A stretch of 43,678 nt of DNA, taken from contig NZ_LT797688.1 in assembly GCF_900009135.1 (NCBI RefSeq), positions 1 to 43,678 on the forward strand, written 5' to 3'. Origin of the DNA: Planktothrix sp. PCC 11201. GTDB taxonomy: Bacteria; Cyanobacteriota; Cyanobacteriia; Cyanobacteriales; Microcoleaceae. How positions within the stretch are numbered: position 1 is the first letter of the stretch; every line of letters starts with the position of its first letter. The position numbers were made by a program, and so were the translations under genes. The notes beneath the pieces were generated by a model that saw nothing but the letters and a program-made list of their open reading frames with translations, searched no databases and had not been told where the DNA came from. Below, in pieces: positions 19,548 to 38,111 of this stretch.

Positions 19548-19550
19548 GCA

Positions 19551-20372
19551 ATGGAAAATCAGCCATTATTTGTTAGCGTTATCATTCCGGTTTATAACGG
19601 AGAAAAATATTTAGCAGAAGCCATTCAAAATGCCCAAAATCAGGATTATCACCCATTAGAAATCATTGTAATTGATGATGGTTCGACAGATAAAACTGCG
19701 GAAATAGCAGCCCAATTCAAAGACTGTATCCGCTATATTTATCAGCAAAATAGTGGGCCAGCATCGGCTCGCAATCACGGTATAAAAGTAGCCAATGGTG
19801 AAGTAATTGCCTTCTTAGATGTTGACGATCTCTGGTCGGATGACAAACTGAAACTGCAAGCAAATTACTTAGCAAATAATCCTTCAGTCGAAATTGTCCA
19901 GGGATTAATCCAACAAATTCAGCGTTTTGAGGATTCTGAAAATAGTCACTCAATCTTTAAAATAGTTTCTAATCCCTATCAATTTGTTAACTTAGGTAGC
20001 TCAATATATCGAAAGTCCCTGTTTGCCAAAATTGGCTTATTTGATGAAACACTCCGATATGCTGAAGATATGGATTTATTATTTAGAGCCTGGGAAAATA
20101 ATATATCTAAAGTGGTGCTAGATCGAGTAACTCTATTTTATAGAAAACACGATGACAACATGACTAAGGGGAAAAAGTTAGTTGAATTGGGGTTTGTAAG
20201 AATTTATAAAAAACATCTGGATCGATGCCGACAGAAAGGAGATTTTACGCGCTCGAATGAATTACCAAATATGAAAGACTACATTGGTGTAGCGCCTCCG
20301 CACAAAGAGCAAAAGAATGGATTATTAGTTACACAACCGCCAAAATTCTCTGATGCAAACGGTATACGATAA
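19551..20372 (+). CDS. GT2 family glycosyltransferase (1 of 3 tandem)
   Basis: A 273-residue single-domain GT-A enzyme. VSVIIPVYNGEKYLAEAI opens the Rossmann-like fold, IDDGSTDKT binds nucleotide, and FLDVDDLWSDDKL carries the DxD-type metal site. YAEDMDLLFRAWENN resembles the ED acceptor/catalytic region. No membrane segment is seen, so it probably acts on the cytoplasmic face. It starts 3 nt after the kinase gene and overlaps the next glycosyltransferase by 1 nt (TAATG). Donor and acceptor cannot be predicted. Confidence 0.9.
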   Translation: MENQPLFVSVIIPVYNGEKYLAEAIQNAQNQDYHPLEIIVIDDGSTDKTAEIAAQFKDCIRYIYQQNSGPASARNHGIKVANGEVIAFLDVDDLWSDDKLKLQANYLANNPSVEIVQGLIQQIQRFEDSENSHSIFKIVSNPYQFVNLGSSIYRKSLFAKIGLFDETLRYAEDMDLLFRAWENNISKVVLDRVTLFYRKHDDNMTKGKKLVELGFVRIYKKHLDRCRQKGDFTRSNELPNMKDYIGVAPPHKEQKNGLLVTQPPKFSDANGIR

Positions 20373-21076
20373 TGAGAGAAAATAACCCTCTAGTCAGCGT
20401 AATCATTCCAGTTTACAATGGCGATCGCCATCTGGCTGAAGCCATCGAAAGTGTTTTGGCACAAACCTATCGACCAATCGAGATTATCGTAGTTGATGAT
20501 GGTTCAACTGATAATACCGCTAATATAGCGCGATCTGATCAACAAATCCGCTACATTTATCAAAAAAATCAAGGTAACGGAACGGCAAAAAATACGGGAA
20601 TTTCAGTTGCTCAGGGGGAGTTAATTGCTTTTCTCGATGTTGACGATCTGTGGACATCTAATAAACTGAATTTGCAAGTTAATTATCTTCTTCAATATCC
20701 CCATATAGATGCTACAATTTGCCAAATGCGTAACATCTTGGAGTCTGGCAATGATTGGCCTTCTTGGTTAAAAAAAGAGCATATAGATGCAGATGTAGCA
20801 GGCTATATTCCCAGTGCTTTAGTTGTCCGTAAAACTGTGTTTGAAAAAATTGGTAATTTCGATCCAACTTACAGACGTACCAATGATGCTGACTGGTTTT
20901 TTCGCGCCAAAGATGGGGGTATTGTAATTGCGGTTATACCCGAAGTCCTTTTATATAAGCGTATTCATAACTCTAATTTATCCCATCAAACCCAAGAAAT
21001 GAACTCAGAACTGATGGGAATTTTAAGGTCATCAATTGAGCGAAAACGCAATCAGAAGCTATCTAAACCTGAGTAA
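20372..21076 (+). CDS. GT2 family glycosyltransferase (2 of 3 tandem)
   Basis: A 234-residue GT2 protein, close in sequence to its neighbours: VSVIIPVYNGDRHLAEAIES, VDDGSTDNT, FLDVDDLWTSNKL. The acceptor-side motif reads RRTNDADWFFRAKD, so ND/AD replaces the ED seen in copy 1. It has only the catalytic domain. The start codon overlaps the upstream stop (TAATG), implying coupled translation. Probably a tandem duplicate that has changed specificity. Confidence 0.9.
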   Translation: MRENNPLVSVIIPVYNGDRHLAEAIESVLAQTYRPIEIIVVDDGSTDNTANIARSDQQIRYIYQKNQGNGTAKNTGISVAQGELIAFLDVDDLWTSNKLNLQVNYLLQYPHIDATICQMRNILESGNDWPSWLKKEHIDADVAGYIPSALVVRKTVFEKIGNFDPTYRRTNDADWFFRAKDGGIVIAVIPEVLLYKRIHNSNLSHQTQEMNSELMGILRSSIERKRNQKLSKPE

Positions 21077-21092
21077 AAAAAAAGCAAGAAAA

Positions 21093-21782
21093 ATGAACTA
21101 TACCCCTTTGGTGAGCGTAATTATACCAGTCTACAATTGCGAAAAGTATTTAGCAGAAACGATTGAAAGCGTCCTAGCTCAAACTTATCAGCCCCTAGAA
21201 ATTATTGTTGTAGACGATGGTTCAACTGATGGTAGTGCAAAAATAGCAAAGCGCTTTGGTACTACAGTGCAATACTGTTTTCAAGTTAATAGCGGTACGG
21301 CGGCGGCTCGTAATCGAGGAATAGAATTAGCAAAAGGCGATTTTTTTGCCTTTCTCGATGCAGATGACCTTTGGGTAGAAGATAAATTAACTAACCAAAT
21401 GGCAGCATTTACAAATAATCCCAATCTTGATATCGTATACGGACAGGTTCAACAGTTTATTAGTCCAGAATTGGGGGAAAATCTGAAAGCTAAACTACAG
21501 GTTTCTCCTAAATTAGTACCAGGACATATTCCCTCAGCATTGCTAATCAAACGGGATTCTTTTTTTCAAGTTGGCTTATTTGAAACTCAGTGGAAAATAG
21601 CCGAATTTGCTAGTTGGCAGGTGCGTGTTACAGAGCTAGGACTCCAGACAATGATGTTACCCGAATTAGTAGCCAAGCGGCGACTGCATGAAACCAATAA
21701 GGGAATTAAACAACGCGAATACCAAGCTGAATATGTTCAGATTTTGAAAGCATCACTAGACCGCCGCCGTGCTAAAGGTTAG
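21093..21782 (+). CDS. GT2 family glycosyltransferase (3 of 3 tandem)
   Basis: 229 residues from the ATG at 21093 (MNYTPLVSVIIPVYNCEKYL). I prefer this to an ATG at 21036, which would overlap the previous gene by 41 nt and add a non-family extension. Motifs: VDDGSTDGS and FLDADDLWVEDKL. At the acceptor-site position the sequence is WKIAEFASWQVRVTELG, without the acidic pair of copy 1, so catalysis or specificity may differ. Confidence 0.87.
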   Translation: MNYTPLVSVIIPVYNCEKYLAETIESVLAQTYQPLEIIVVDDGSTDGSAKIAKRFGTTVQYCFQVNSGTAAARNRGIELAKGDFFAFLDADDLWVEDKLTNQMAAFTNNPNLDIVYGQVQQFISPELGENLKAKLQVSPKLVPGHIPSALLIKRDSFFQVGLFETQWKIAEFASWQVRVTELGLQTMMLPELVAKRRLHETNKGIKQREYQAEYVQILKASLDRRRAKG

Positions 21783-21815
21783 GATATTAAAATTGGTGGC
21801 TTATAATCGACGGAT

Positions 21816-22715
21816 ATGAACTTAAAGACTCGGCTAAACAACATTAAAACTCGTTTCAAAGCTGCATCCAAAGCCTTCCTTAATCCGATGCTTACGCTCA
21901 AACCAAAAGTTTTTATCAAAACAGTAGAGCCTTTGGTCGTTTTAGATAATCAGCTTTTAGCTGGAAAAAATGTCTTGATTACCGGAGCAGCAAGAAATAT
22001 TGGCAGAAGTATTGCTATTGAAATGGCAAAACAAGGCGCAAATATTTTTTTCACCGATATTGTTGAGGAAGAATGTTTAAACTTAGAAAAAGAATTAAAT
22101 ACTTATCCAGTGAAGGTGAAAAGTTTTGTTTCAGACATATCAAAGCCTGAAGATATTGATTATTTATATAGCATTTTAGAGGAAAATAAAATCATAATTG
22201 ATATTCTGGTCAATAATGTAGGCATTCAATTTGAAACAATTGGGATAAATCACTTGGATTTGGGAGAATGGCAGAAAACCTTTCAAACTAATATATTTGG
22301 GCCGATGTACCTTACCAAAATTATCGCCAAAATGATGGTCAGTAATTCTATTCAGGGTGCTATTATTTTTCTGACTTCTATACACCAAGAAATACTTGTT
22401 CGCTGGCCTAGTTATAGTTCTTCAAAAGCAGCATTAGGCATGATTATCAAAGAATTAGCGGTAGAATTTGCTCCCTACGGAATCAGAGTAAATGGAATTG
22501 CTCCAGGTTGGGTTGTAGAAGATGAGCAAGGAAATCCATTCAGCCACGAGTATACGCTCCTGAATAAAAGTTCTATTAATCCTTGTTATATCGGTAGAGC
22601 GGCTGTTTATCTAGCTTCTGATTATTTTTCCAGGTTTACTACTGGCAGTATCATTAAAATTGATGGGGGATTATCATTATTTAATTATCGTGTATTTCAG
22701 CAGCCAACTGAATAA
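21816..22715 (+). CDS. Short-chain dehydrogenase/reductase
   Basis: A 299-residue classical SDR. The cofactor motif TGAARNIG (about residues 55-62) follows a 45-residue basic N-terminal extension not usual for the family. NNVG, Ser in FLTSIHQE, and the catalytic Tyr/Lys in YSSSKAALG (about 199/203) are intact, followed by IRVNGIAPGWV. The C-terminal TGSIIKIDGGLSL is typical. It lies between the glycosyltransferases and a lactonase-like gene, so oxidation or reduction of a sugar is a reasonable guess. The extension could anchor it to a partner. Confidence 0.88.
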   Translation: MNLKTRLNNIKTRFKAASKAFLNPMLTLKPKVFIKTVEPLVVLDNQLLAGKNVLITGAARNIGRSIAIEMAKQGANIFFTDIVEEECLNLEKELNTYPVKVKSFVSDISKPEDIDYLYSILEENKIIIDILVNNVGIQFETIGINHLDLGEWQKTFQTNIFGPMYLTKIIAKMMVSNSIQGAIIFLTSIHQEILVRWPSYSSSKAALGMIIKELAVEFAPYGIRVNGIAPGWVVEDEQGNPFSHEYTLLNKSSINPCYIGRAAVYLASDYFSRFTTGSIIKIDGGLSLFNYRVFQQPTE

Positions 22716-22744
22716 AAAAGCACTGTTTATTTGGATGAAATATA

Positions 22745-23692
22745 ATGTTGCGTATCGCCAAATGGGTCAATAGACAGATAAAACAACTAGGTTCGACTTT
22801 TCCCCAAAAATTAGCATCGGGTCGATTAGAAGCTAAATCTCAAGGGTTTAGAAATCTCTTTCCTAAGAAAGTAAAGATTGATCGCGTAGCTACCGGATTT
22901 CAGTTTACTGAAGGGCCGATTTGGATAGCTGAAGAAAAGCATCTACTATTTAGCGATATTCCCGCTAACAAAATTTTACAGTTGACTCCTAATGGAGAGG
23001 TAAAAATATTTAGAAAACCTAGTAATCATTCTAATGGTTTAACCAGGGACAAACAAGTACGATTAATTGCGTGTGAACACGGGACTCGCCGAGTTACCCG
23101 CACCGAAAAAGACGGTACAATTACTATTTTAGCCGATCAATTTCAAGGCAAAAAACTCAATAGTCCCAATGATATTGTTGTTAAAAGTAACGGTGCAATT
23201 TATTTTACCGATCCTCCCTATGGAATTCAACCCGAAGAACAGGAACAACCCATCCAAGGGGTTTACTTAATTCCGCCCGATCATCAAGAACTAATTCTCC
23301 TCGCCGATGATTTTTATAAACCGAATGGTTTGGCATTTTCACCGGATGAAAAACAGCTTTATATTGACGATTCCCAATGTCGTCATATCCGAGTTTTTGA
23401 TGTCAAAATTGATGGTACACTGGCTAATAGTCGTGTTTTTCATGATATGAACATCAAGGAACCCGGTTCACCGGATGGGATGAAAATTGATGTGCAGGGA
23501 AACATCTATTGTACAGGAGCCGGAGGCGTGTGGGTATTTGATTGTCAAGGCAATCATTTAGGAACTATTGTCACTCCAGAACGCCCCGCAAATTGTGCTT
23601 GGGGAGACGAAGATGGGCAAAGTCTTTATATCACTGCTCAGACTTCAGTTTACAGAATTAGAGTTAATATTCCGGGTATTCAAGTGACTTAA
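22745..23692 (+). CDS. SMP-30/gluconolactonase-like beta-propeller protein
   Basis: A 315-residue protein. After a basic 45-residue N-terminus, the metal-site motifs of SMP-30/gluconolactonase appear in order: FTEGPIWIAEEKHLLFSDIP (Glu), SPNDIVVKSNGAIYFTDPPY (Asn), YKPNGLAFSPDEKQLYIDDS (Asn/Asp) and EPGSPDGMKID (Asp). Such enzymes open sugar lactones. Beside an SDR this suggests aldose oxidation to a lactone and then hydrolysis, but the pairing is inferred from position alone. It sits 29 nt after the SDR and 17 nt before the next gene. Confidence 0.88.
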   Translation: MLRIAKWVNRQIKQLGSTFPQKLASGRLEAKSQGFRNLFPKKVKIDRVATGFQFTEGPIWIAEEKHLLFSDIPANKILQLTPNGEVKIFRKPSNHSNGLTRDKQVRLIACEHGTRRVTRTEKDGTITILADQFQGKKLNSPNDIVVKSNGAIYFTDPPYGIQPEEQEQPIQGVYLIPPDHQELILLADDFYKPNGLAFSPDEKQLYIDDSQCRHIRVFDVKIDGTLANSRVFHDMNIKEPGSPDGMKIDVQGNIYCTGAGGVWVFDCQGNHLGTIVTPERPANCAWGDEDGQSLYITAQTSVYRIRVNIPGIQVT

Positions 23693-23709
23693 TTAATTAG
23701 AACTAAATT

Positions 23710-24810
23710 ATGAATTTTAATTTTAATCAAGAGCAACAATTAATTTTACAAGCCGCGCTTTTACAAGGTGAAGCAGCCATTAATTCTTGGCAAAGATGGA
23801 GAACATTGATCAATATTGACGATGTGGATCAAGACTCTTATCGGTTATTACCGTTACTCTATCGCAATTTATCAGCTAATAATGTCACAGATCCATATAT
23901 TGGTAGACTCAAGGGTGTTTATCGACGTATTTGGGTTGAAAACCAAGTTTGGTTTCAAAAAATTCGATCTATTTTAGGTTCTTTTCAAGAAGCTGATATT
24001 AAAATCATGCTGCTTAAAGATGCCGCTTTAAATTTGCATTATTATCAAGATCATGGTCTACGTTATATCAATCATCTTGATTTTTTGATTAACTCAAAAG
24101 ATGTTTTCAATGCCGTAAATTTATTACAAGAATTGGGTTGGACAGCCAAAGAAAAAATTCCTAATCCCACTGTTCCTTTTAGTCATTATATTGGGTTTGA
24201 AAATGAATCTAAGCAATATTTAAGCCTTCGTTGGCATCTTTTCGCGGATGGTTTTAATGAAAACGCAGAAACCGAGTTTTGGCAGAATGCAATATTAACT
24301 CAAGTCAACGATTTTCCCGTTTATCTTTTATCGGCGACTGACCAGTTATTTTACACCTGTGTATTTGGAGGATTAACGAATTCAATTTCACCCATTAGTC
24401 GGTTAGTAGATGCTGCAATCATTATTCAGTCATACCCCCTTGAAATCGATGCAAACCGATTGCTAACATTAGCAGAAAAATACCGTTTTATTATACTCTT
24501 AAAATCGAGAATAACGCAGTTACAAGAAATCCTCAATTTACCTATTTCATCCTTGATTTTACCCGAACTCCAAAAATTATCAATTTCTAAATTTGAACAT
24601 CAAGAATATCAGATGATAACGAGTAAAGAAAACACCACCTTAAATCGTTTAAAAAAAAGATATTTCCAATATTACAGAACAGTCAACACGGATGATTTTA
24701 ACGTCTTCAATTTTTTCAGTTATCTGCAATCTATTTGGGGTTTAGAAAATTTATGGCAAGTACCCATACAAGTTATAATCCGAGGAATTAAAAGACAGAT
24801 ATCTCGTTAG
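23710..24810 (+). CDS. Degenerate NTP_transf_5 family protein
   Basis: A 366-residue relative of the gene that opens the island. The region IKIMLLKDAALNLHYYQDHG, then LRYINHLDFLINSKD aligns with FKGPVL...RQFSDLDILI of the first protein. Here the first metal-binding Asp is His122, while Asp124 remains, and the usual KG is KD. SLRWHLFADG corresponds to ELHWGI. Nucleotidyl transfer is therefore doubtful; a binding or regulatory role, or a changed mechanism, is possible. It is the last island gene and ends 18 nt before the 3' end of treZ on the other strand. Confidence 0.75.
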   Translation: MNFNFNQEQQLILQAALLQGEAAINSWQRWRTLINIDDVDQDSYRLLPLLYRNLSANNVTDPYIGRLKGVYRRIWVENQVWFQKIRSILGSFQEADIKIMLLKDAALNLHYYQDHGLRYINHLDFLINSKDVFNAVNLLQELGWTAKEKIPNPTVPFSHYIGFENESKQYLSLRWHLFADGFNENAETEFWQNAILTQVNDFPVYLLSATDQLFYTCVFGGLTNSISPISRLVDAAIIIQSYPLEIDANRLLTLAEKYRFIILLKSRITQLQEILNLPISSLILPELQKLSISKFEHQEYQMITSKENTTLNRLKKRYFQYYRTVNTDDFNVFNFFSYLQSIWGLENLWQVPIQVIIRGIKRQISR

Positions 24811-26667: not shown

Positions 26668-27771
26668 TTACAGTTTAGGATGTAGAGATGGGTTTGGGCT
26701 TGTCTCCACTTCGTGAATTTCTACGGGTATTTCTAGGGAATTTACCTCGGCGGGTTGTAATAAATTGGTTTCTGTTTGAGAGGGGGTAAAATCCTGAAAA
26801 CCTTTGATTTTAAACTTTCCGGCTAAAACTTCCCGTTGATTCACTAAATAGATACTCACTAATGTCAAACAAACACCCAATGATTGTAACGGACTGAGAA
26901 CTTCTTGTAAAAAGAAATTTCCAAATAAGAGGGCAAAAACCGGGGTGAGAAAGGTCAGAGAACTCAAGCTAGTCAGGCTTCCACTAGATGCAAAATAGAA
27001 AAATAATCCGTAGGATATGGCACTACCAAATACGGTAGAATAGCCCATGGCCGCCCAACCGGAAAGATCAATATTTTGCCATTGTTGAGTTTCCGAAATA
27101 GCTGATAACCCGAATAGGGGTAAACCCCCAATAATCATGTGCCATCCCGTTCCCACCACCGGATCAGCATAGCGACAAACCCACCGCACTAATACCGTTC
27201 CCACGGCCATGGATAGGGCAGCTAATAACATTAATAATTGCCCACTATTAAACAGTTGAGAAATATCAATAGAAGTGGTTAATAATTCCGAATTAAGTAA
27301 CCCTAAAATCCAATCATCGGGTAAACCAATAAAACTAATTCCAATAATCCCAATAGCCAACCCTAACCAGCCCCAAAATCCAATGGTTTCTTGAAATAAC
27401 CATAGGGATAAAATTGCCACGGCTAGGGGTTGGGAGTCGATCATCACCGATCCTAACCCGGCCCCAGTTCTCATTAACCCTTGGGCTAAAAATCCTTGAA
27501 ATAGGGTGGCGTCCACTAACCCAAATATTGAGATCCAGAGCCAGGCTTGCCAGCCTTTGGGTTGGGGACGTCCCGACAATATCCCCGCCAATATTACCAA
27601 AACCCCTGCGGGAACTAACCGGACTCCCGCCATAAAAAACGGTGTGGTTTGGGGGAGAAGTCCCTTCATCGCCACCATCGCCGTCCCCCAAAAGAAGAAG
27701 GGGGCAATTAACAATAATGGTTGAAAGGGTAATTTTGCTGGGGTTTGGGGTTGCTGCATTCGCTTCTCCAT
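26668..27771 (-). CDS. EamA/DMT-superfamily permease
   Basis: A 367-residue polytopic protein with about ten hydrophobic segments in two EamA repeats (LIAPFFFWGTAMVAMKGLLP start; a second repeat around LLMLLAALSMAVGTVLVRWV). The C-terminal 60 residues are hydrophilic and Glu/Pro-rich. The first ATG (27771) lacks a good ribosome-binding site; the ATG at 27759 has GGAG six bases before it and may be the true start. It precedes treZ by 18 nt in the same orientation. Family members export metabolites or amino acids; export of sugars is only a guess from context. Confidence 0.87.
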   Translation of the reverse strand: MEKRMQQPQTPAKLPFQPLLLIAPFFFWGTAMVAMKGLLPQTTPFFMAGVRLVPAGVLVILAGILSGRPQPKGWQAWLWISIFGLVDATLFQGFLAQGLMRTGAGLGSVMIDSQPLAVAILSLWLFQETIGFWGWLGLAIGIIGISFIGLPDDWILGLLNSELLTTSIDISQLFNSGQLLMLLAALSMAVGTVLVRWVCRYADPVVGTGWHMIIGGLPLFGLSAISETQQWQNIDLSGWAAMGYSTVFGSAISYGLFFYFASSGSLTSLSSLTFLTPVFALLFGNFFLQEVLSPLQSLGVCLTLVSIYLVNQREVLAGKFKIKGFQDFTPSQTETNLLQPAEVNSLEIPVEIHEVETSPNPSLHPKL

Positions 27772-27860: not shown

Positions 27861-28679
27861 ATGATTTGGCCATTTAAACCGAGCTACCGCAAACAAATCG
27901 CCCGCATAGAAATTAATGGAGCCATTGGGTCAGAGACCCGCAAACGGGTGTTAGAAGACCTAAAAACCGTGGAAGAACGGAAATTTCCCGCCCTATTATT
28001 GAGAATTGATAGCCCCGGGGGAACCGTTGGCGACTCCCAAGAAATTTATAGCGCCCTGAAACGGTTACAGAAAAAAGTCAAAATTGTGGCGAGTTTTGGG
28101 AATATTTCTGCCTCCGGGGGTGTGTATATTGGCATGGGAGCCGAACATATTGTGGCTAACCCCGGTACAATTACCGGAAGTATTGGAGTAATTTTAAGAG
28201 GTAATAATATAGAGCGCTTATTAGAAAAAGTAGGTGTATCTTTTAAGGTGATTAAATCGGGGCCCTATAAAGATATTTTGTCTTTTGATCGAGAATTAAC
28301 TGAACCCGAACAACATATTTTACAGGAATTAATTGATACCAGTTATCAACAATTTGTACAAACCGTGGCTGAGTCTCGGAACTTGAGTCATGACACCGTG
28401 AGAACTTTCGCTGACGGTCGAATTTTTACCGGACAACAAGCGGTAGAATTGGGCATAGTAGACCGTTTAGGAACGGAAGAAGATGCCCGGTGTTGGGCGG
28501 CGGAATTAGTTAAACTTGATCCCAAGAAAACCGAGTGTTTCACCTTTGAAAAACCCAAACCTTTTCTAAGTAGATTAACCGGGAGTAATTTAGCCCCTAA
28601 TAGCATTATTGCGGCTAACCGTTGGTTAGAATTTGAGTTATCTACCAGTGGTTTACCCCTGTGGATGTATCGACCATAA
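27861..28679 (+). CDS. sppA: Signal peptide peptidase SppA-like S49 serine protease
   Basis: A 272-residue S49 peptidase of the short, single-domain type. The catalytic dyad is visible: Ser85 in NISASGGVYIGMG and Lys137 in SGPYKDI, 52 residues apart as in Bacillus SppA. LRIDSPGGTV and GSIGVI are conserved. Unlike many relatives it lacks an N-terminal membrane anchor, so it is probably soluble or peripherally bound. It would degrade signal peptide remnants or other small peptides. Convergent with the next gene; a dispersed palindromic repeat lies between them. Confidence 0.9.
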   Translation: MIWPFKPSYRKQIARIEINGAIGSETRKRVLEDLKTVEERKFPALLLRIDSPGGTVGDSQEIYSALKRLQKKVKIVASFGNISASGGVYIGMGAEHIVANPGTITGSIGVILRGNNIERLLEKVGVSFKVIKSGPYKDILSFDRELTEPEQHILQELIDTSYQQFVQTVAESRNLSHDTVRTFADGRIFTGQQAVELGIVDRLGTEEDARCWAAELVKLDPKKTECFTFEKPKPFLSRLTGSNLAPNSIIAANRWLEFELSTSGLPLWMYRP

Positions 28680-28762: not shown

Positions 28763-29305
28763 TTAATAGTTGTCAGTTATTAGTGAACAGTTTTTTAAAT
28801 CATAAGATACCTGTAGTAAGCCAGAAGGATAGGTTTTTACCTGTTTTAATTCTAGGGAAATTTCTAAATTGGGATCGGAAGTTATTAACGGAATCCCACT
28901 GCCTAAAATGATGGGGTGAATGGACAAAATTAATTCATCAATCCAACCTTGTCGGAGAAATTCATGGATTAATTGACCTCCTCCTACAATCCAAATATCT
29001 TGACCTGGAGATTGACGGAGGGATTCAATAAAGTTTTTACAATCTCCGCCAATGAATTCTACATGATTAGTTTTTGTCCCTTGATCAGATTTGGAAAAGA
29101 CAAATCCCTTTTTTTTGGGATAGGGATATTCTCCAAAGGTTAGAACTTGCTGATATGTTTTACGCCCCATTAAAACCGTATCAATTTGATCATAAAATTC
29201 CGTGTAGCCATAATCCGCATCGGTGAATAACCAATCAATTTCGCCCGTTTTTCTGGCAATATATCCATCTAAACTTGAGGCAATAAACAACCGTATTTTT
29301 CTCAT
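28763..29305 (-). CDS. RibD C-terminal/dihydrofolate-reductase-like protein
   Basis: A 180-residue protein of the YyaP/YwjB type: MRKIRLFIASSLDGYIARKT start, DTVLMGRKTYQQVLTFGEYP, IWIVGGGQLIHEFLRQGWID and ELILSIHPIILGSGIPLI. These match the reductase fold with an NADPH site (VGGGQL). Many homologues are annotated as dihydrofolate reductases, but most are not the cell's folate enzyme. The ATG at 29305 begins with the conserved motif. Confidence 0.87.
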   Translation of the reverse strand: MRKIRLFIASSLDGYIARKTGEIDWLFTDADYGYTEFYDQIDTVLMGRKTYQQVLTFGEYPYPKKKGFVFSKSDQGTKTNHVEFIGGDCKNFIESLRQSPGQDIWIVGGGQLIHEFLRQGWIDELILSIHPIILGSGIPLITSDPNLEISLELKQVKTYPSGLLQVSYDLKNCSLITDNY

Positions 29306-29431
29306 GACAATGAGTTGCTTTTATCTAGGGTTAGGTGATATGGATATTTTAGTTGAGCTTAAGAGTTCATAGGCTATTATTGATATATAAAGACTTTAAC
29401 ACTTAAAATTGTTGTGATGGTAGGGTGAATT

Positions 29432-29722
29432 ATGAAGCGTGATGAGGTTCTCAGTATTCTGGCGCAGCATCGGATGGTATTAAAAGACTTGGGAGTCAAA
29501 TTGTTAGCAATATTCGGTTCTGTAGCCAGGGATGAAGCTAGACCTGATAGTGATGTCGATATTTTAGTAGAGTTTGAGGGTTCAGTTACATTTGACCGTT
29601 ATATGGATGTAAAATTTTACCTCGAAGATTTACTAGAAACGCGGGTAGACTTGGTAAGTCAGCGATCGCTTAAACCTCTGATTCGCTCTACTGTAGAACA
29701 GGAAGCCATTTATGTCGCGTAG
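29432..29722 (+). CDS. mntA: MNT-type nucleotidyltransferase antitoxin
   Basis: A 96-residue minimal nucleotidyltransferase. The motif GSx10DxD is intact: Gly29-Ser30 and Asp41/Asp43 (LLAIFGSVARDEARPDSDVD). In characterised HEPN/MNT systems such proteins inactivate the toxin by adding AMP near its active site. The gene overlaps the HEPN gene by 11 nt, which fixes the pair. Confidence 0.92.
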   Translation: MKRDEVLSILAQHRMVLKDLGVKLLAIFGSVARDEARPDSDVDILVEFEGSVTFDRYMDVKFYLEDLLETRVDLVSQRSLKPLIRSTVEQEAIYVA

Positions 29723-30062
29723 TATTCGTCTCTATTTGGAAGATATCCTCACTTCTGGAGTCAAAGTCAAACGGTACACACAAGGAATGAGCTTTGAGGA
29801 TTTCCAAGCTGATGAGCGTACTTATGATGCGGTTGTCCGTAATTTGCAGATTATTGGAGAAGCAGTTAAAAATATTCCCCAGGAAATTCGTTTAAAGTAT
29901 TCAGAGGTTGAATGGCGAAAAATTGCCGGATTGCGTGATATTTTGGCTCACGCTTATTTTAGCATTGAAGATGAGATTGTCTGGGATATTGTGGAAACTA
30001 AAATCCCCCCATTAATAATAGTAGTAGAGCGAATTTTAGAGGTAGAGTTTGGGGATGAATAA
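29712..30062 (+). CDS. hepT: HEPN-domain ribonuclease toxin
   Basis: A 116-residue DUF86/HepT-type protein. The catalytic R-x4-H-x-Y motif is present: Arg75, His80 and Tyr82 in GLRDILAHAYF. YDAVVRNLQIIGEAVKNIP is the typical central helix. HEPN toxins cleave RNA and are silenced by the MNT partner encoded just upstream. The ATG at 29712 lies inside the end of the antitoxin gene, implying coupled translation. Confidence 0.92.
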   Translation: MSRSIRLYLEDILTSGVKVKRYTQGMSFEDFQADERTYDAVVRNLQIIGEAVKNIPQEIRLKYSEVEWRKIAGLRDILAHAYFSIEDEIVWDIVETKIPPLIIVVERILEVEFGDE

Positions 30063-30122
30063 CATTATAAAAATAGGATCTAATTTTTTTATTGATTGAT
30101 AGAAGGGAGGACACTTACACTA

Positions 30123-30205
30123 CTTCTCCCCGTTCCAATGCTCTGCATGGGAATGATTGTTTTGAGGCTCCGCCTCCTCTTAGAATGGGAGCCAGAACCC
30201 CGTTT
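30123..30205. repeat. Dispersed repeat-like element with two small hairpins
   Basis: Hairpin 1: TTCCAATGC, loop TCT, GCATGGGAA (one mismatch) at 30133-30153. Hairpin 2: GAGGC, loop TCC, GCCTC at 30164-30176. This order (GTTCC...GCATGGGAAT...GAGGCTCCGCCTC) resembles elements repeated in many filamentous cyanobacterial genomes. It lies between the convergent hepT and radical SAM genes. Confidence 0.5.
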
Positions 30206-30219
30206 AATCAAATGTATAA

Positions 30220-31356
30220 CTAAGAGCTAATTGAAAGAACCTTTGCCAGTGCAATTTGTCTCTCACAATAAGCTGGATTAACTCTATAGTTTCCTTGTTC
30301 ATCACGGAGAGCCAATGCGGGACACATCTTACATATTGACTTAGCTGAACAATTTGGATTACATCCACTGATAACTAAACTTTCCTCTGCTTGTATATTA
30401 TTAACTAACTGTTCCCAAGCATCAGGAAAAGAAAGTTTCATTAGATTGAAGCGCCGATCTCGAATGCTTGAACAGGGAGAAAGAGTAGCATCGTAGTTAA
30501 TGTAAGCACCTACTTTACCAACTCCGCAGCTAAAAACATGAGATGGATCTCTATCCTTTCCATCTTTTAAATTCCTAGAGGGAATTAGTTTTTTTTCTAG
30601 CTGAAGTCCAAATTTTTCTGCTGAGTAATATTCTTTATTTTTTAGTAAAAAATATGATAAATCATCACCATCAAGACCATTCTTAATACTGGGATCTGCC
30701 AAATATTCTAGGTTTCGATTTTCACACCAGTTATGTATCCACTCAATAGAATTCTTGGTCAGAGTAGTTATTGGGGTTTTACAAAGAAGATTAAAACCAT
30801 AGTTGTGAAGAATCTCTATATTTTGGAGTACCTGTTTAAAAGCTCGCCGTCCAGTGACTCTTTCATAACTATCTTCATCATGACCATAAATGCTAATTTC
30901 AATTCTATAAGGTGGATAACGCTTAAAGATTTCGAGTTGATCGGCGGTTAACTTTTCTAAATTAGTGTAAACAGATACAATAATACCTGCCAAGCGTAGT
31001 TTTTCATAAATGGCTGTAAAATTTGGATGGATCAGGCACTCTCCGCCTGTTAAAATGACTTGAACAACCCCCGCATCAACAAATTCATCAATAAGTTCAA
31101 AAGCCCGTTCCGATGAGAATATCGTATTTTGCGTATGTCCTACTATATAACAAAAGCGACATTTAAAGTTGCACGCTGAAAGCAACTCCCATTGGAGAGT
31201 AGCAGGTATTCTTGTTCCGGCTAAAATCCAATCAATAAAAGCTTTAAGATTTGAAAAATTCAATTTATCATCTTCAATTTTTTTTAAGTAAATACCAAAA
31301 GACTGCGATGGATCAACTGCGAAATCTACATTACCAATGTGCCGATGAACTAACAT
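30220..31356 (-). CDS. Radical SAM/SPASM peptide maturase
   Basis: A 378-residue radical SAM enzyme. The cluster-binding CX3CX2C is Cys62/Cys66/Cys69 (SACNFKCRFCY); ILTGGECLIHP supplies the SAM-binding GGE. The N-terminal about 50 residues precede the barrel and may help bind a peptide. The C-terminal SPASM-like region holds many Cys (CGVGKVGAYINYDATLSPC; CNPNCSAKSICKMC; final PAYC), enough for two auxiliary Fe-S clusters, the pattern of enzymes that modify ribosomal peptides. A GTAGGAA ribosome-binding site precedes the ATG. Upstream on the same strand lies a 57-codon gene, a likely substrate. The reaction type (crosslink, thioether, epimerisation) cannot be told by eye. Confidence 0.88.
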   Translation of the reverse strand: MLVHRHIGNVDFAVDPSQSFGIYLKKIEDDKLNFSNLKAFIDWILAGTRIPATLQWELLSACNFKCRFCYIVGHTQNTIFSSERAFELIDEFVDAGVVQVILTGGECLIHPNFTAIYEKLRLAGIIVSVYTNLEKLTADQLEIFKRYPPYRIEISIYGHDEDSYERVTGRRAFKQVLQNIEILHNYGFNLLCKTPITTLTKNSIEWIHNWCENRNLEYLADPSIKNGLDGDDLSYFLLKNKEYYSAEKFGLQLEKKLIPSRNLKDGKDRDPSHVFSCGVGKVGAYINYDATLSPCSSIRDRRFNLMKLSFPDAWEQLVNNIQAEESLVISGCNPNCSAKSICKMCPALALRDEQGNYRVNPAYCERQIALAKVLSISS

Positions 31357-31372
31357 ATATGTTTCCTACCTT

Positions 31373-31399
31373 GAGGACGCGATACTATGTCGCGTCCTC
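31373..31399 (-). promoter_or_regulatory. Hairpin between candidate precursor and maturase genes
   Basis: A perfect 10-bp stem, GAGGACGCGA / TCGCGTCCTC, with a 7-nt loop, placed 17 nt before the maturase ATG. There is no T tract on the minus strand, so it is more likely a processing or mRNA-stability element, or an attenuator, than a full terminator. Confidence 0.65.
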
Positions 31400-31476
31400 T
31401 ATTAAAGTTACTGTTTAGTAATTGGCTTTTAGGTTTTTATCACCTTTTTAGATGATTTTACGATCTTAATCGTTGC

Positions 31477-31650
31477 CTAAAATAGTGCATTTTTGGGACA
31501 TTTCATGACATTTGCTCGTTCTGTTCCTACCTCAATTTGATACCATTCGCTGTGATTATCTGCTGGATTCTCAATATATTTAGACTGAGCGATTGCACTG
31601 TTCTTTTGCTGCTCAATGGCTGGAGTCTCTGCTATTTTGCTTTGTAACAT
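31477..31650 (-). CDS. Candidate RiPP precursor peptide, 57 residues
   Basis: Short gene on the minus strand, ATG at 31650, stop TAG at 31477-31479, in a stretch that otherwise looks empty. AGGA lies eight bases before the ATG. The first about 33 residues (MLQSKIAETPAIEQQKNSAI onward) are Gln/Ser/Ala/Lys-rich like a leader; the last third contains EWYQIEVGTERANVMKCPKN with Trp36, Tyr37 and a single Cys51. The next gene downstream is a radical SAM/SPASM maturase, 120 nt away. No known precursor family (Nif11, NHLP, SCIFF, cyanobactin) is recognisable. The coding call rests on the start signal, length and position; the role is inferred. Confidence 0.65.
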   Translation of the reverse strand: MLQSKIAETPAIEQQKNSAIAQSKYIENPADNHSEWYQIEVGTERANVMKCPKNALF

Positions 31651-31895
31651 AGTAATAATCCTACTTTATGAAAGTTTGAAAGAAAGTACACTCTAGTTAA
31701 CTAGAAATTCTTTCCTTGTATTTCTCCTGATTTTAATATGCAAGTTTATTTTTGCATAGTCATAAAAGTGTCATAAAGTAGCATTTTAATAAATTTTTAC
31801 ACAACTAATTTTGTAGGAAAAAGTAGGATTTTTTTGCTAAAGTGGGAAAAAGTATGATAGAGTTGGCTGATCGTTGAATAACGCCACTTTTTTCT
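31651..31895. promoter_or_regulatory. Divergent control region between precursor and HTH-NB-ARC gene
   Basis: Three repeat structures are packed here. Inverted repeat TATGCAA (31737-31743) / TTGCATA (31752-31758). Tandem GTCATAAAAGT (31759-31769) and GTCATAAAGT (31770-31779). Direct repeats GTAGGAAAAAGTAGGAT (31813-31829) and GTGGGAAAAAGTATGAT (31842-31858), 15 of 17 identical and 29 nt apart. Both flanking genes start outward from this region, so these are candidate operators. Confidence 0.55.
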
Positions 31896-33269
31896 ATGGA
31901 AATTCAAGATATTTTAAAATGGACTGATGAACAGGTACTTGCTAAAACCGGAAAACATCTTGATTCCCTCCAAAAAGCTATATTAGAAGGAGTTTGGGAG
32001 CATCATGATTATGAAGAAATTGCAGAGAATCATCAGCGCAGTTATGCTCATGTCAAAAAAGAGGCATGGAAATTATGGAAACTTCTATCTGATACTATGG
32101 GAGAAGATGTTAAAAAGTCTAATGTGTGTTCTTTACTAGAACAAGCAGAAATATCTCATATTTCAAATCGGGCTGATGTTCTCCAAATTGTTATCAGCAA
32201 TAGTCAAGTCAATATCTGTGGTGAAAATAAGCGATCGCCATCTCCCCCAGAAACATCCCAAACTCAAAACCAATCAACCATCATCAATTTAACAGAAGCA
32301 CCTGAATTAACAACCTTTTACAACCGCACTTCAGAACTATCTACCCTCAAACAATGGATATTAGAAGACCATACTCGCTTAATTACTATCTATGGATTAA
32401 GTGGAATGGGAAAAAGTGCGATCGCCCTTAAACTGATTGAAGAAATTAATACAGAATTTGATTATATTATCTGGAAAAGCCTTAATAACCTTCCTACCCT
32501 TTCAACGCTACAAACCGAACTCAAAGACTTTTTTTCTCCATCTCAACCTACTCCCTTATCGACAGTTATTGATTATTTTTGTAAGTTTCGTTGTTTAGTG
32601 ATTCTCGATGACGTGCAGGATATTTTTAAAACAGGTGAATTAGCAGGTCAATATTTAACAGAATCTAAAGACTACGGTACATTTTTTAAACAAATTGCTA
32701 GAACTTCTCATCACAGTTGTATAATCCTGATCAGTTGGGAAAAACCCAGAGAAATTGCCACCTTAGAAGCTGAAAACCGACCGATTAAAACATTACACCT
32801 CAAAGGGTTAGGAGAAGAAGCGACAGAAATCTTGAGAGAAAAAGGATTAACCGATGAGCAACAATGGCTTGATTTAATCACTCGCTATCAAGGTCATCCA
32901 GTCTGGTTAAATCTCATCGCCTCAACCATATTAGAACTATTTAACGGTAGGGTTTCCCAATTTTTAGAGGATAAAAATGATATATTTATTGGAGAGTTAT
33001 CTCCGATTTTAGAATCAAAATTAGAGCGATTATCAGACTTAGAAAAACAGGTCATTTCCCGGTTAGCACATCAACAGCAAGTGATCGATATTTCTCAACA
33101 ACTTGCTGATCGTCATTTCTCTAAAACAGACTTATTGCAAGCCATTCAATCCTTAGTCAGACGAGGATTAGTGGAAAAAGTCTCAGAGGGAGAGCGATCG
33201 CTATTTGAACTCAATCCCGTCTTTCAACAATACATCCCTAATTCTATTCCCTTATCAAACTCAAACTAG
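31896..33269 (+). CDS. vMAP-N-type HTH plus NB-ARC ATPase (short STAND protein)
   Basis: A 457-residue protein. The N-terminus (LDSLQKAILEGVWEHHDYEE, then RSYAHVKKEAWKLWKLLS) is the helix-turn-helix domain found at the start of many cyanobacterial vMAP/WD40-STAND proteins. An NB-ARC ATPase follows: P-loop GLSGMGKSA near residue 167, Walker B CLVILDDVQD near 234, and GHPVWLNL in the GLPL position. A winged-helix domain (about 375-450) ends the protein. The usual WD40 or TPR sensor and any effector are absent. The stop codon looks natural and I see no WD40 sequence in the 200 bp downstream. It may be a regulator or a partner of a sensor encoded elsewhere. Confidence 0.83.
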   Translation: MEIQDILKWTDEQVLAKTGKHLDSLQKAILEGVWEHHDYEEIAENHQRSYAHVKKEAWKLWKLLSDTMGEDVKKSNVCSLLEQAEISHISNRADVLQIVISNSQVNICGENKRSPSPPETSQTQNQSTIINLTEAPELTTFYNRTSELSTLKQWILEDHTRLITIYGLSGMGKSAIALKLIEEINTEFDYIIWKSLNNLPTLSTLQTELKDFFSPSQPTPLSTVIDYFCKFRCLVILDDVQDIFKTGELAGQYLTESKDYGTFFKQIARTSHHSCIILISWEKPREIATLEAENRPIKTLHLKGLGEEATEILREKGLTDEQQWLDLITRYQGHPVWLNLIASTILELFNGRVSQFLEDKNDIFIGELSPILESKLERLSDLEKQVISRLAHQQQVIDISQQLADRHFSKTDLLQAIQSLVRRGLVEKVSEGERSLFELNPVFQQYIPNSIPLSNSN

Positions 33270-33475
33270 GATATTATTGCTCTTGATTCTATCATATTCT
33301 TCCTGTCTTCGTGTCTTTGTGGTTCCTTCTACAGTTTCAAATTGGAATTTCATTGTTTCCATTTTTGCATCAGTTTCATCAGGGTTTCGGTAGAATAGAA
33401 TCACTTTAACGCTTGCATTTTAAAACAAAATGTGCTAATAAAACATCAATCAACTAGAGTTTTCACGCAGAAACC

Positions 33476-34909
33476 ATGCAAGCGCAAAACTTCAAACAAA
33501 AATTTAAGCAAACGGTACAAACCTGCGTCGCCTCGGACGTGACCGCGTTGTATGGGAGTATGCTGTTGAGAAGCTCTAGTGTTGTCGCCTGTCTAGCCTT
33601 AGCAACTGCCCACCCCTTAACCGCACAAGCCGCCGCCGTTGTAGATTGGAAAATTGATCCCAACACCGGAATTGTCGAGGTCGAACTGCCGCCAGGGAAT
33701 CAGCCCCAATTATCGGTTTATAACCTTCCCCCGCGCCTAATCCTAGACCTTCCGAATACAGAAGTTAAAGTAAATATTACCGAACGCTATGATACAGGCG
33801 TTGTTCGTCAAGTCAGTTTAATTCAGGCTAAACCCCAACAAGCTCAACTGGTGGTGGAATTTACCCAGGGTATCACCGTTGACCCCCAAACCCTCGATTT
33901 ACGGCAAATTGGGATTGATAACCTCTGGGTCTTGCGTCCCACCCTACAAACCTTACCCCCGGAACCCCCTGCAACTCCTCCGAATAGCGTTGCGACCGCC
34001 CAACCCCAAACGACTCCAACTCCTGCCCCCTCCCGAACTGCCACCGCCCCCCAAACCACCACCGTTAAGCCGACCGAACCCCCAAAACCTCCTCAATATT
34101 CTGTCCGTCAATACGACCCCCGACAAACGGTTTTACCCAACCCCCAACCGACCCGAGATTCGAGTTTAGATGTGGTGCGGTTTCCGGTGAGTCAGCCTAG
34201 CCAAGCCCAACTGTTCCCTACCGTTTCGTCACCCCCAAACCCGTCCCTGAAAACCCCGATTGTCCGTCCGGTGGCCACCATTCGCCCAGCCAATTTATAC
34301 CCATACCCACCTGATTATCAATACCAAGCATCATCCCTGCCCCAAGCGGTTCCCTTTGGTCAACCTTTGCCCCCAGGACAGCAGCAATCCTATCTTAATC
34401 CTCGTCCTCCGGCGATTCTGCTTCCGACCGGAACCGCTTTAACCTTACTGTATCCCACGGAAGATCAAGTGCGTTTAACTAATCGTTCTGAACGTCAGGA
34501 TGTGTTGTTATTGCAAGGGGGAATTGTTGATAGTTTAGGCAATTATATTGTGCCGCCGGATACGCCGATTGTCGGAGAGTTTGAAACCACAGCAAAAGGC
34601 AGTCGATTTATTGCTCAAGCGATTAATTTAGACGGTCGTAGTATCCCGATTCAAGGTCAATCTAACTGGATTCCAGGGTCATTAGAAGTTCGTCCTGAAC
34701 GGGTAGGAATTGGTACGGGTGCGGGAAGTTTAGCGGGGTTTTTAATTAGTGGTTTTACCGGAGTTGGGGCTTTAGTCGGCGCCATTGCTGGGGCGGGAAT
34801 TGGGATTGGGACTTCTCCCTCGCCCACGACTTTACAACCCGGTCAAATCATTTCTATTCAGTTAACCCAAGATTTGACAACTCCTAATTTCTTTATAGTT
34901 AATCAATAG
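33476..34909 (+). CDS. AMIN-domain protein with Pro-rich linker and glycine-zipper C-terminus
   Basis: A 477-residue envelope protein. A basic N-terminus and hydrophobic SSSVVACLALATAHPLTAQA form an export signal. Residues about 55-150 are an AMIN domain (VDWKIDPNTGIVEVELPPG; LPPRLILDLPN), which binds peptidoglycan or pilus/secretin components. About 155-315 is a Pro/Thr/Gln-rich linker. The C-terminal part has a beta-rich segment (GTALTLLYPTEDQVRLTN; VPPDTPIVGEFETTAKGSRF) and a Gly zipper (GTGAGSLAGFLISGFTGVGA). No amidase domain is present. The C-terminal part vaguely recalls TrbI/VirB10-type domains, but I would not rely on that. Role: probably cell wall or outer-membrane organisation. Confidence 0.82.
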   Translation: MQAQNFKQKFKQTVQTCVASDVTALYGSMLLRSSSVVACLALATAHPLTAQAAAVVDWKIDPNTGIVEVELPPGNQPQLSVYNLPPRLILDLPNTEVKVNITERYDTGVVRQVSLIQAKPQQAQLVVEFTQGITVDPQTLDLRQIGIDNLWVLRPTLQTLPPEPPATPPNSVATAQPQTTPTPAPSRTATAPQTTTVKPTEPPKPPQYSVRQYDPRQTVLPNPQPTRDSSLDVVRFPVSQPSQAQLFPTVSSPPNPSLKTPIVRPVATIRPANLYPYPPDYQYQASSLPQAVPFGQPLPPGQQQSYLNPRPPAILLPTGTALTLLYPTEDQVRLTNRSERQDVLLLQGGIVDSLGNYIVPPDTPIVGEFETTAKGSRFIAQAINLDGRSIPIQGQSNWIPGSLEVRPERVGIGTGAGSLAGFLISGFTGVGALVGAIAGAGIGIGTSPSPTTLQPGQIISIQLTQDLTTPNFFIVNQ

Positions 34910-35102: not shown

Positions 35103-38100
35103 ATGTCTAAACTTTTGATTCATCAATATTATAATACCGTTGATCAAATTATTCAATATGGGGGAAGTCGCAAAGAAACTTCGATCCGCGTGGCGTTTCA
35201 AAATCTGTTAAATGACTATTGTAGAAGCAAAGATTTTTTATTGATTCCTGAGTTAGAATACAAAACCAAAAAGGGAAAACCTGTATATCCCGATGGGACA
35301 ATTAAAGATACTCTCAGATTAGATTATGGTTATTGGGAAAGTAAGGATCAATATGATAATTTAGATTTAGAAATTGAGAAGAAACTGGCGAAAGGTTATC
35401 CCGATGATAATATTTTATTTGAAGATTCCCAAACGGCGGTTTTAATTCAAGGAGGAGGGGAAATTCTGCGGGTATCCATGGAAGATGCGGAAGCATTGGA
35501 TACCGCTATTAACGCTTTTATTAACTATTTACGTCCAGAAGTTCGGGATTTTCGAGACGCTATTAGCCATTTTCAAGAAGATTTACCGACCATTTTAACA
35601 ACGTTGCGATCGCTAATTGATCAACAGTCTATTAGTAATAAACCCTTTCAACAAGCGCGGGATAAATTTTTGCGGGTTTGTCAAGATTCTATTCACCCAG
35701 AAATTAGTTTAGAAGATATCCGAGAAATGATGATTCAGCATATCTTAACCGAAGATATCTTTATTAATATTTTCAATGAGTCCCAATTTCACCGAGAAAA
35801 TAATATTGCTAGTCAGTTACAAGCGGTGATTGAAACTTTTTTCACCGGGGCGACCAAACGCAATACTTTAAGCACTATTGAGCGTTATTATGCGGTTATT
35901 CGACGCATCGCAGCTAATATTTATAACCATCACGAAAAGCAAAAATTCCTGAAAGCAGTTTATGAGAATTTCTATAAAGCGTATAACCCAAAAGCGGCGG
36001 ATAAGTTAGGAATTGTTTATACTCCTAATGAAATTGTCCGGTTTATGATTGAGAGTACGGATTATTTATTGCATAAACATTTTGGTAAAATTTTAGCGGA
36101 TAAGGATGTGGAAATTTTAGATCCCGCCACGGGGACGGGAACATTTATTACTGAATTAATTGAATATTTACCTAAAGCTCAATTACCCTATAAATACGAG
36201 CATGAAATTCATTGTAATGAAGTGGCGATTTTACCCTATTATATCGCTAACTTAAATATTGAGTTCACCTATCTGCAAAAAATAGGGAATTATGCCGAAT
36301 TTCATAATATTTGTTTAATGGATACTTTAGATCATACGGTTTTTGCGGATAAACAGTTAGATTTATTCTCGATGACGGTGGAAAATACCGCTAGAATTAA
36401 ACGACAAAATGATCGCAAGATTTTAGTTATTATGGGAAATCCGCCTTATAATGCTAATCAACAAAACGAAAATGATAATAATAAAAATCGCGAATACCCC
36501 GCGATTGATAAACAGATTAAAGCTACTTATATTAAAGAAAGTACCGCGCAAAAAACTAAACTTTATGATATGTACTCCCGATTTTTTCGATGGGCTTCTG
36601 ATAGATTAGGAAAAAATGGTGCTTTGGCTTTTGTGACTAATTCATCTTTTATTGAAGCACGAAGTTTTGATGGTTTTAGAAAGGTAGTTAGTCAGGAGTT
36701 TAGTTATATCTATATAATTGATTTAGGTGGAGATATTAGAAAAAATCCCCAACTTTCGGGAACTAAACATAATGTTTTTGGCATTCAAACTGGGGTAGCT
36801 ATTAGTTTTATGGTCAAAAAATATTCAAACCAGAAAAATGTACCTTGTCAAATTTTTTATACTCGTCGAAATGAATTTGATACAGCCGAGGAAAAACTAA
36901 ATTTTTTAGCGTCTATCTCTTTTGAGCAGGTTGATTTTGCTCATGTTACTCCTGATGATAAAAGCAATTGGATTAATTTAACAGATAATGACTTTGATAG
37001 TTTATTACCTTTGGTTGCTCAAAAAAATCAAAATTCTATATTTAAGTTAAATAATCCAGGTATATCAACAAATAGAGATTTATGGGTTTATGATGTAGAA
37101 AAAAGCAATTTGATAAATAAAATCAATTACATGATTAAAACCTATAATAATCTTTTAGACGAAAAGAACAATAATTATCCAGAAATAATCAAATGGAGTC
37201 ATGTATTAAAAAAAAGATTTGCACGAGAAACAAATTTTAGTTTTTCTTTGGAAAAAATCACAAAAGCCTGTTACAGACCATTTTATAAAGTATTTTATTA
37301 TGGGGATTTAGATTTAAGTGACTTGCTAACTGAGTTACATTTTTTAACTTATGGAAAAAATTTAAAACAAAGTAATTTTGTAATTAATTTTACTGGCCCA
37401 AATTCTCAAAAACCCTTTATGGTATTAATAAATAATTGTGTTAGTGATTTACATTTTGTAGGTGCTGCTGCTGCAACCCAATGTTTAACTTTATATATTT
37501 ACACTGAAAATAACGAAAAAATCGATAACATTACCGACTGGGGGTTAACTCAATTTCAAACCCATTATAACGATAAAACTATAAAAAAAATTGATATCTT
37601 CCATTATACCTACGCTGTTTTACATCATCCCCTCTATCGACAAAAATACGAACAAAACCTAAAACGCGACTTTCCCCGTATTCCTTTTTTTGATAATTTT
37701 CCACAGTGGGTAACTTGGGGAAAACAACTGATGGAACTTCATATTAACTATGAAACCATCAACCCCTATCCCCTAACCCGGGTTAATAGTTCGGAAACCG
37801 AAATCACCAACCCCAAACCCAAATTAAAAGCCGATAAAATCAAAAATGAAATTATCCTTGATACCGTCACCAGCTTAACCGATATTCCTAAAACCGCCTG
37901 GGACTATCGCCTAGGAAATCGTTCGGCGTTAGAATGGATATTAGACCAATATAAAGAGAAAAAACCCAAAGATGAAACTATTGCCAAACAATTCAATAAT
38001 TATCGATTTGCGGACTATAAAGAACAGGTGATTAACTTATTAATGCGGGTTTGTACTGTTAGTATAGAAACCGTTAAAATTATTCAAGCCATGGAAACCC

Positions 38101-38111
38101 ATCAACATTAA
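35103..38111 (+). CDS. Single-chain restriction-modification enzyme (type IIG / ISP-like N6-adenine methylase)
   Basis: A 1002-residue protein. The N-terminus (about 1-120) contains LRLDYGYWESKD, a PD-(D/E)xK-type site with Asp74, Glu79 and Lys81 as candidates. A helical connector (about 130-290) follows. The methylase domain has motif I DPATGTGTF (about 340) and motif IV GNPPY (about 446), typical of N6-adenine gamma-class enzymes. The C-terminal about 400 residues resemble the specificity domain of LlaBIII-type enzymes (KKIDIFHYTYAVLHHPLYRQ; WDYRLGNRSALEWILDQY). No SNF2/RecA helicase motifs are present, unlike true type ISP enzymes, so the protein is closer to type IIG. The recognition site is unknown. 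Confidence 0.87.
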   Translation: MSKLLIHQYYNTVDQIIQYGGSRKETSIRVAFQNLLNDYCRSKDFLLIPELEYKTKKGKPVYPDGTIKDTLRLDYGYWESKDQYDNLDLEIEKKLAKGYPDDNILFEDSQTAVLIQGGGEILRVSMEDAEALDTAINAFINYLRPEVRDFRDAISHFQEDLPTILTTLRSLIDQQSISNKPFQQARDKFLRVCQDSIHPEISLEDIREMMIQHILTEDIFINIFNESQFHRENNIASQLQAVIETFFTGATKRNTLSTIERYYAVIRRIAANIYNHHEKQKFLKAVYENFYKAYNPKAADKLGIVYTPNEIVRFMIESTDYLLHKHFGKILADKDVEILDPATGTGTFITELIEYLPKAQLPYKYEHEIHCNEVAILPYYIANLNIEFTYLQKIGNYAEFHNICLMDTLDHTVFADKQLDLFSMTVENTARIKRQNDRKILVIMGNPPYNANQQNENDNNKNREYPAIDKQIKATYIKESTAQKTKLYDMYSRFFRWASDRLGKNGALAFVTNSSFIEARSFDGFRKVVSQEFSYIYIIDLGGDIRKNPQLSGTKHNVFGIQTGVAISFMVKKYSNQKNVPCQIFYTRRNEFDTAEEKLNFLASISFEQVDFAHVTPDDKSNWINLTDNDFDSLLPLVAQKNQNSIFKLNNPGISTNRDLWVYDVEKSNLINKINYMIKTYNNLLDEKNNNYPEIIKWSHVLKKRFARETNFSFSLEKITKACYRPFYKVFYYGDLDLSDLLTELHFLTYGKNLKQSNFVINFTGPNSQKPFMVLINNCVSDLHFVGAAAATQCLTLYIYTENNEKIDNITDWGLTQFQTHYNDKTIKKIDIFHYTYAVLHHPLYRQKYEQNLKRDFPRIPFFDNFPQWVTWGKQLMELHINYETINPYPLTRVNSSETEITNPKPKLKADKIKNEIILDTVTSLTDIPKTAWDYRLGNRSALEWILDQYKEKKPKDETIAKQFNNYRFADYKEQVINLLMRVCTVSIETVKIIQAMETHQH

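Follow-up and report, generated by a model that had tools for sequence, protein, structure and literature searches.

The locus and its surroundings

The locus described here belongs to Planktothrix sp. PCC 11201, a filamentous cyanobacterium (GTDB lineage Cyanobacteriota; Cyanobacteriia; Cyanobacteriales; Microcoleaceae), and was studied within 43,678 nt of contig NZ_LT797688.1 of assembly GCF_900009135.1, referred to throughout as the window. On the minus strand, a gene for a 57-residue precursor-like peptide (31477-31650) precedes a gene for a 378-residue radical SAM enzyme (30220-31356), and divergent from the peptide gene, on the plus strand, is a gene for a 457-residue STAND ATPase with an NB-ARC domain and a weak sigma70-r4/HTH-like N-terminus (31896-33269). 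A sequence-only reading of this DNA had presented the peptide and enzyme as a small self-standing operon. Both genes lie where that reading placed them, the 57-codon one with an ATG start and an AGGA ribosome-binding site 8 nt upstream, but the pair belongs to a three-gene unit whose NB-ARC/STAND member had been missed.

The region between the divergent genes contains direct repeats spaced 10 bp apart (31809-31858, plus strand), a putative operator extending into the sequence TATGAT, presumably the -10 box of the NB-ARC gene. A second repeat pair, AAAAGTGTCAT AAAGTAGCAT (31764-31784, plus strand), lies closer to the peptide promoter and is also found in L004, the related locus described below. 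Upstream of the peptide gene is a perfect palindrome, TCTAGTTAACTAGA (31692-31705, no strand), whose TCTAG/CTAGA arms are retained in L004, and the gap between the peptide and enzyme genes holds a minus-strand hairpin (31373-31399; stem GGACGCGA/TCGCGTCC) with its stem likewise retained. Rfam searches over window 29000-33500 gave no match at gathering score.

The three-gene unit brings no RRE, protease or exporter with it. For the conserved unit, the earlier statement that no transporter or protease is adjacent is correct. Farther out, 1.5 kb and 2.4 kb past the enzyme end, are the genes for an S49 peptidase (27861-28679) and for an EamA transporter (26668-27771), respectively; the ORFs listed for the 11.1 kb of L004 include, by eye, no counterpart of either. 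An MNT/HepT toxin-antitoxin-like pair (29432-30062) directly follows the unit and is 94-100% identical in three of the eight relatives read, and a Type ISP restriction-modification enzyme is encoded nearby (35103-38111; PF18135, E 4.3e-89). Elsewhere in the window, a cluster at 16438-24810 that resembles lasso-type PqqD/kinase sets encodes a PqqD protein (17925-18389), a weakly HPr-kinase-like protein (18459-19547), an SDR and two nucleotidyltransferases of PF14907, along with ORFs that by eye are glycosyltransferase-like.

The peptide and its adjoining enzyme

Scanning 84,980 species genomes with short exact peptide words, a method that reaches close relatives only, returned 36 stretches, one of which encodes a relative: L004, in the distant cyanobacterial MAG S07.Bin090. 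Similarity between the window and L004 covers the NB-ARC gene, the intergenic region, the peptide and the enzyme. Past the enzyme it breaks off, with DNA identity of 89% within that gene and 43% over the following 100 bases. The enzymes are 84% identical over their whole length, the peptides 68% and the NB-ARC proteins 65%.

The peptide frame occupies the same place in L004, with start, stop and frame kept and one 3-nt indel. The 38 substitutions between the two copies cause 18 amino acid changes, compared to a mean of 25.3 under random placement (P = 0.0009), which also creates a stop codon in 74% of shuffles. The sequence-only reading had expected a variable core at the C-terminus; instead, this is the conserved part, with 4 changes in the last 27 codons against 8.2 expected by shuffling (P = 0.0039), while the first 29 codons carry 14 changes and selection on them alone is not significant (P = 0.14). 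The peptide consists of an identical MLQSKIA head, a variable middle and a conserved 27-residue end, DNHSEWYxIEVGTERANxMxCPKxALF, which includes W36, Y37 and C51. Relative to L004, the peptide has a dN/dS of 0.36 and the enzyme one of 0.30. By this substitution pattern, which is that of coding DNA, the short frame at 31477-31650 is coding, with conservation resting on two loci (n = 2). The proposal that the frame would be conserved near homologous maturases is borne out by the one other intact enzyme found, so that both intact loci (2/2) pair a short conserved coding frame with a putative modifying enzyme, as expected of a RiPP pair.

Intergenic and flanking non-coding DNA is 78-79% identical to L004, level with the peptide DNA, indicating that constraint acts at the DNA level there as well. 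This conservation, together with the folding of the 141-nt peptide-enzyme region (z -5.6; L004 counterpart -3.3), would suit a translated leader or attenuator of the enzyme gene, encoding a peptide without a function in itself. We regard this as very unlikely, as selection acts on the amino acid sequence both over the whole frame and in its last 27 codons, and the peptide has only one Trp and one His with, by eye, no run of regulatory codons. The hairpin may set the peptide:enzyme ratio and would fit an excess of peptide over enzyme.

The peptide matched no NCBIfam or Pfam model at E <= 1, in agreement with the earlier view that it lies outside the precursor families known in cyanobacteria. 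It lacks an FxSxx motif, its C-terminus being CPKxALF, and also lacks the YG motif of spliceotides. Among plasmids, 33 records matched, none covering 80% of the peptide and the best at an E of about 1. A peptide profile run over 388 class genomes found, besides the gene itself, three weak places (E 0.005-0.05; all frames were read in L005 only) with internal stops, which were set aside as chance matches.

The enzyme is a member of the radical SAM superfamily by its match to PF04055 (E 2.3e-23) and its C62-X3-C66-X2-C69 motif, and it bears seven C-terminal cysteines (C277, C295, C332, C336, C342, C345 and C364), all seven invariant in L004. Both cysteine sets are as the sequence-only reading described them, and its assignment to the SPASM class is only approximate, since no SPASM Pfam model matched at E <= 1 and the spacing deviates. 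The motif is printed as CX9-15GX4C-gap-CX2CX5CX3C-gap-C (PMC6231123, available part), whereas the enzyme has CX17C with A290 in place of the Gly, followed by CX3CX5CX2C and a final C, keeping seven cysteines in order. Nor was any PqqD/RRE Pfam match found at E <= 1, the Radical_SAM match beginning at residue 60; the N-terminal RRE of SkfB-type sactipeptide maturases is thus not recognized here, although a divergent one could escape detection.

None of the maturase families fits the enzyme among the best 25 of its 67 NCBIfam matches, all 25 of which fall far below their cut-offs. Searches with tblastn matched 60 plasmid and 7 phage records, each below 60% identity, and among the best 30 of the 60 plasmid records and all 7 phage records identity was 20.7-31.8%. 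Viral contigs scanned with both alignments contained no relative. The PADLOC pVip model covers enzyme residues 54-184 at 54.9 bits, and the AhbD and archaeal MoaA models also match (67.2 and 61.6 bits), which could point to a viperin-like or MoaA-like protein acting on a small molecule. These matches are limited to the common radical SAM core, however, and lie far below the cut-offs (44 against the curated 180 bits for prokaryotic viperin, 67.2 against 500 for AhbD and 61.6 against 325 for MoaA), and the enzyme has its seven C-terminal cysteines, making a small-molecule enzyme very unlikely.

A further alternative is that the peptide is an unmodified small regulatory protein, such as a ligand, an anti-activator or an antitoxin-like partner of the ATPase or enzyme, and that the enzyme acts elsewhere. 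The C-terminus is conserved like a binding surface rather than varying like a typical core, the enzyme lacks an RRE profile match, and by eye the unit lacks a protease or exporter. On the other hand, the arrangement seen here, in which a short gene immediately precedes that of a Cys-rich radical SAM enzyme on the same strand, is common for precursor-maturase pairs. Precursors with conserved C-termini have also been described for FxSxx-type systems (PMC7159879, available part), and on balance we judge the regulatory alternative unlikely.

Spread of the unit and the NB-ARC family with its upstream repeats

The enzyme is rare and patchy in its distribution. With the source genome counted, whole-genome searches found it in 2 genomes each among 98 relatives and among 61 of the family (both at E 1e-20), in 2 among 388 of the class (1e-25) and in 3 among 388 of the order (1e-18); these sets overlap one another. 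The second genome, G017, holds a remnant of about 125-134 residues, and the third order-level match, G580, is presumably the MAG of L004 itself, as its contig number and offset coincide with those of G465. No enzyme match was found in nine other genomes of the genus, one of them 73% complete. In G017 the middle of the enzyme abuts NB-ARC residues 404-451, the C-terminus of that protein. The genome of L004 (G465) contains a further trace, C1, in which the last 59 enzyme residues remain, 98% identical to those of L004, about 1.5 kb from another NB-ARC gene; a different 186-codon ORF lies in between, which we read as replaced cargo. All four enzyme traces found, two intact (window and L004) and two decayed (G017 and G465 C1), lie beside this ATPase family, and the remnants suggest loss and replacement of cargo.

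Synonymous divergence (dS) of the window from L004 rises from 0.27 in the enzyme through 0.58 in the peptide to 0.85 in the NB-ARC gene. In a helicase found in both genomes, synonymous change has reached saturation (0.75 of the sites differ; 64% protein identity), so the unit is more recent than the divergence of these genomes, and with this one housekeeping gene as the yardstick the comparison favors horizontal spread of the unit. The gap between the enzyme and NB-ARC values indicates that the parts need not always have moved together. A flanking AMIN gene identifies the site in nine relatives of the same genus, eight of which were read, omitting G004, whose gene is partial. Neither enzyme nor peptide was found within 12 kb in any of the eight (E 1e-4), and an NB-ARC tail of 16-25 residues precedes the AMIN gene in three (G001, G009 and G005). 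The DNA alignment with G001 halts at window position 30073 and resumes at 33187. The tails suggest that an NB-ARC unit was probably once present at this site and then deleted. The loci showing such a short NB-ARC C-terminal relic at the corresponding site, in relatives without the unit, are L103, L104 and L107.

The NB-ARC protein is assigned to the STAND/NB-ARC class by its match to PF00931 (28.7 bits against a gathering cut-off of 23.5). It shows a weak HTH match (Sigma70_r4_2, E 0.13) and no recognized sensor repeats, TIR or TPR, and a search of solved structures with the NB-ARC alignment gave no match at 1e-3. In its own genome 28 places match this protein, 16 of which, the window included, span nearly all of it; in L055 and L056 the match is limited to the N-terminal 117-124 residues. 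No other radical SAM gene was found by a CX3CX2C search in the 16 loci with 6-kb flanks, or beside the 30 NB-ARC loci of the second genome, a weak test with flanks of at most 1.5 kb.

By eye, the genes facing members of the family are varied and include small exported or membrane proteins and a methylase-like ORF. At L055:4563-5782 (minus strand), an N-terminus-only member faces a 47-residue peptide that contains a CC pair and, after it, a 332-residue protein; neither of the two has a Pfam match, and they form a second candidate peptide/enzyme pair. The distance to the nearest divergent ORF, which looked constant by eye, was not used as a cassette signature because a mechanical count gave 18/38 compared to 28/115 in controls.

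Direct repeats with 10-bp periodicity recur upstream of members of the family. They were tested by a motif-free autocorrelation of bases -110 to -20 with a threshold of lag-10 z >= 2, the controls being open frames rather than proven genes, some of which may share an intergenic region. The threshold was reached by 14 of 18 NB-ARC upstreams (13 of 18 on a locus-by-locus rerun, a difference due to shuffle noise) and by 7 of 120 control ORFs. Besides the window and L004, the 18 consist of 16 from among the other 27 places in the source genome (14 near full length plus L055 and L056). Autocorrelation peaks at lag 10, with a lesser peak at lag 20. In the second genome (G465, L059-L088), 18 of 25 upstreams compared to 7 of 40 controls reached the threshold, or 16 of 22 once L059 (the L004 unit) is dropped and any two rows with a common upstream are counted as one. 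Over 38 loci, mean lag-10 z peaks at 3.27, centered 60 bp upstream of the start, and lags 8 and 12 are flat; this set omits L045, the repeated L059, L086 and L088, and L062 (only 169 bp of upstream sequence, z -1.3). The window itself scores 1.8, just under the cut, and L045, which has a transposase-like ORF immediately upstream, scores -1.0. The high values of L055 and L056 (4.3 and 5.5), which match the NB-ARC protein in its N-terminal part only, suggest that DNA binding resides there.

The repeat units vary between family members (G000 L041-L056; G465 L059-L088), and those of L072, L087 and L088 look by eye to be spaced 9 bp apart. Four of five genome matches to a pattern derived from the window's repeats lie just upstream of family members, with two matches for the reversed control. 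Motif counts (mean 1.22 compared to 0.04) were kept out of the argument as the motif was drawn from the same sequences. The 10-bp periodicity suggests paralogue-specific operators, and the simplest reading of these upstream sequences is that each member has its own putative operator, in which a repeat recurs at every helical turn and to which an oligomer would bind. STAND regulators such as MalT have repeat sites near promoters, which the repeats here recall.

Proposed function and comparison with known systems

We consider it probable that a RiPP-type precursor/maturase pair is the cargo of a cassette controlled by the divergent NB-ARC/STAND ATPase. Judging from the pairing, the peptide would be the ribosomal substrate of the adjoining enzyme, which would reduce SAM at its CX3CX2C cluster and probably use auxiliary clusters in its Cys-rich C-terminus. 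On the basis of this pairing and of established radical SAM chemistry, the conserved end of the peptide would most likely acquire a crosslink or a similar modification, with W36, Y37 and C51 as candidates. By binding the 10-bp direct repeats that separate its gene from the peptide gene, the ATPase would govern its own promoter and probably that of the cargo. The modified peptide could serve as a signal or effector in conflict between cells; with no RRE, protease or exporter linked, the product may stay inside the cell or use housekeeping functions.

A wider reading, which we put forward tentatively as a somewhat unlikely extension, is that filamentous cyanobacterial genomes each contain more than a dozen NLR-like STAND cassettes with their own 10-bp operators and exchangeable divergent effectors, the effector here being a radical SAM-modified peptide that acts as a signal or toxin and may be the ligand of its STAND partner. 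Effectors would then be sought divergent from each NB-ARC gene, and the repeats would offer a direct and cheap handle on the role of the numerous NLR-like proteins in filamentous cyanobacteria.

Several known systems share parts of this arrangement. By sequence, the best solved-structure match of the enzyme is SkfB (E 1.1e-10, 44.4 bits), and as in the SkfA/SkfB sporulation killing factor, where the precursor is a 55-mer, a short peptide is paired with a radical SAM enzyme that has, or in the present case probably has, an auxiliary cluster (PMC6231123, available part). SkfB is described in the same text as having an N-terminal RRE and a Twitch domain; the enzyme here differs in having no RRE profile match and seven C-terminal cysteines, and scores 41.9 bits against the SkfB family model, whose cut-off is 300. 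The ATPase resembles the NB-ARC in sigma70-type cyanobacterial proteins in joining an HTH-like stretch to a STAND NTPase (PMC11119718, available part). It differs from that group in that sensor repeats were not recognized, and the available part of that source does not mention paralogue-specific 10-bp repeats or exchangeable divergent cargo.

As far as the available part of the source extends, the nearest known system is the actinobacterial FxSxx grouping, which combines variable precursors with more conserved C-termini, a radical SAM/SPASM enzyme and an AP-ATPase (Kaur et al. 2020, PMC7159879). The unit cannot be counted as a member, because the FxSxx end, the zincin peptidase (by eye the conserved unit has no peptidase) and the vWA part of those systems are absent; moreover, its ATPase has no recognized TIR or TPR, its NB-ARC gene is divergent with repeats upstream, and its host is cyanobacterial. 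As in the FxSxx systems, a small precursor, a radical SAM enzyme and an AP-ATPase (NB-ARC) gene are found in one locus, and by analogy the unit likely works in a similar way. If so, it would represent a precursor/maturase type without a Pfam or NCBIfam match, and would extend to cyanobacteria the link between radical SAM peptides and NB-ARC proteins that has been put forward for actinobacteria (PMC7159879).
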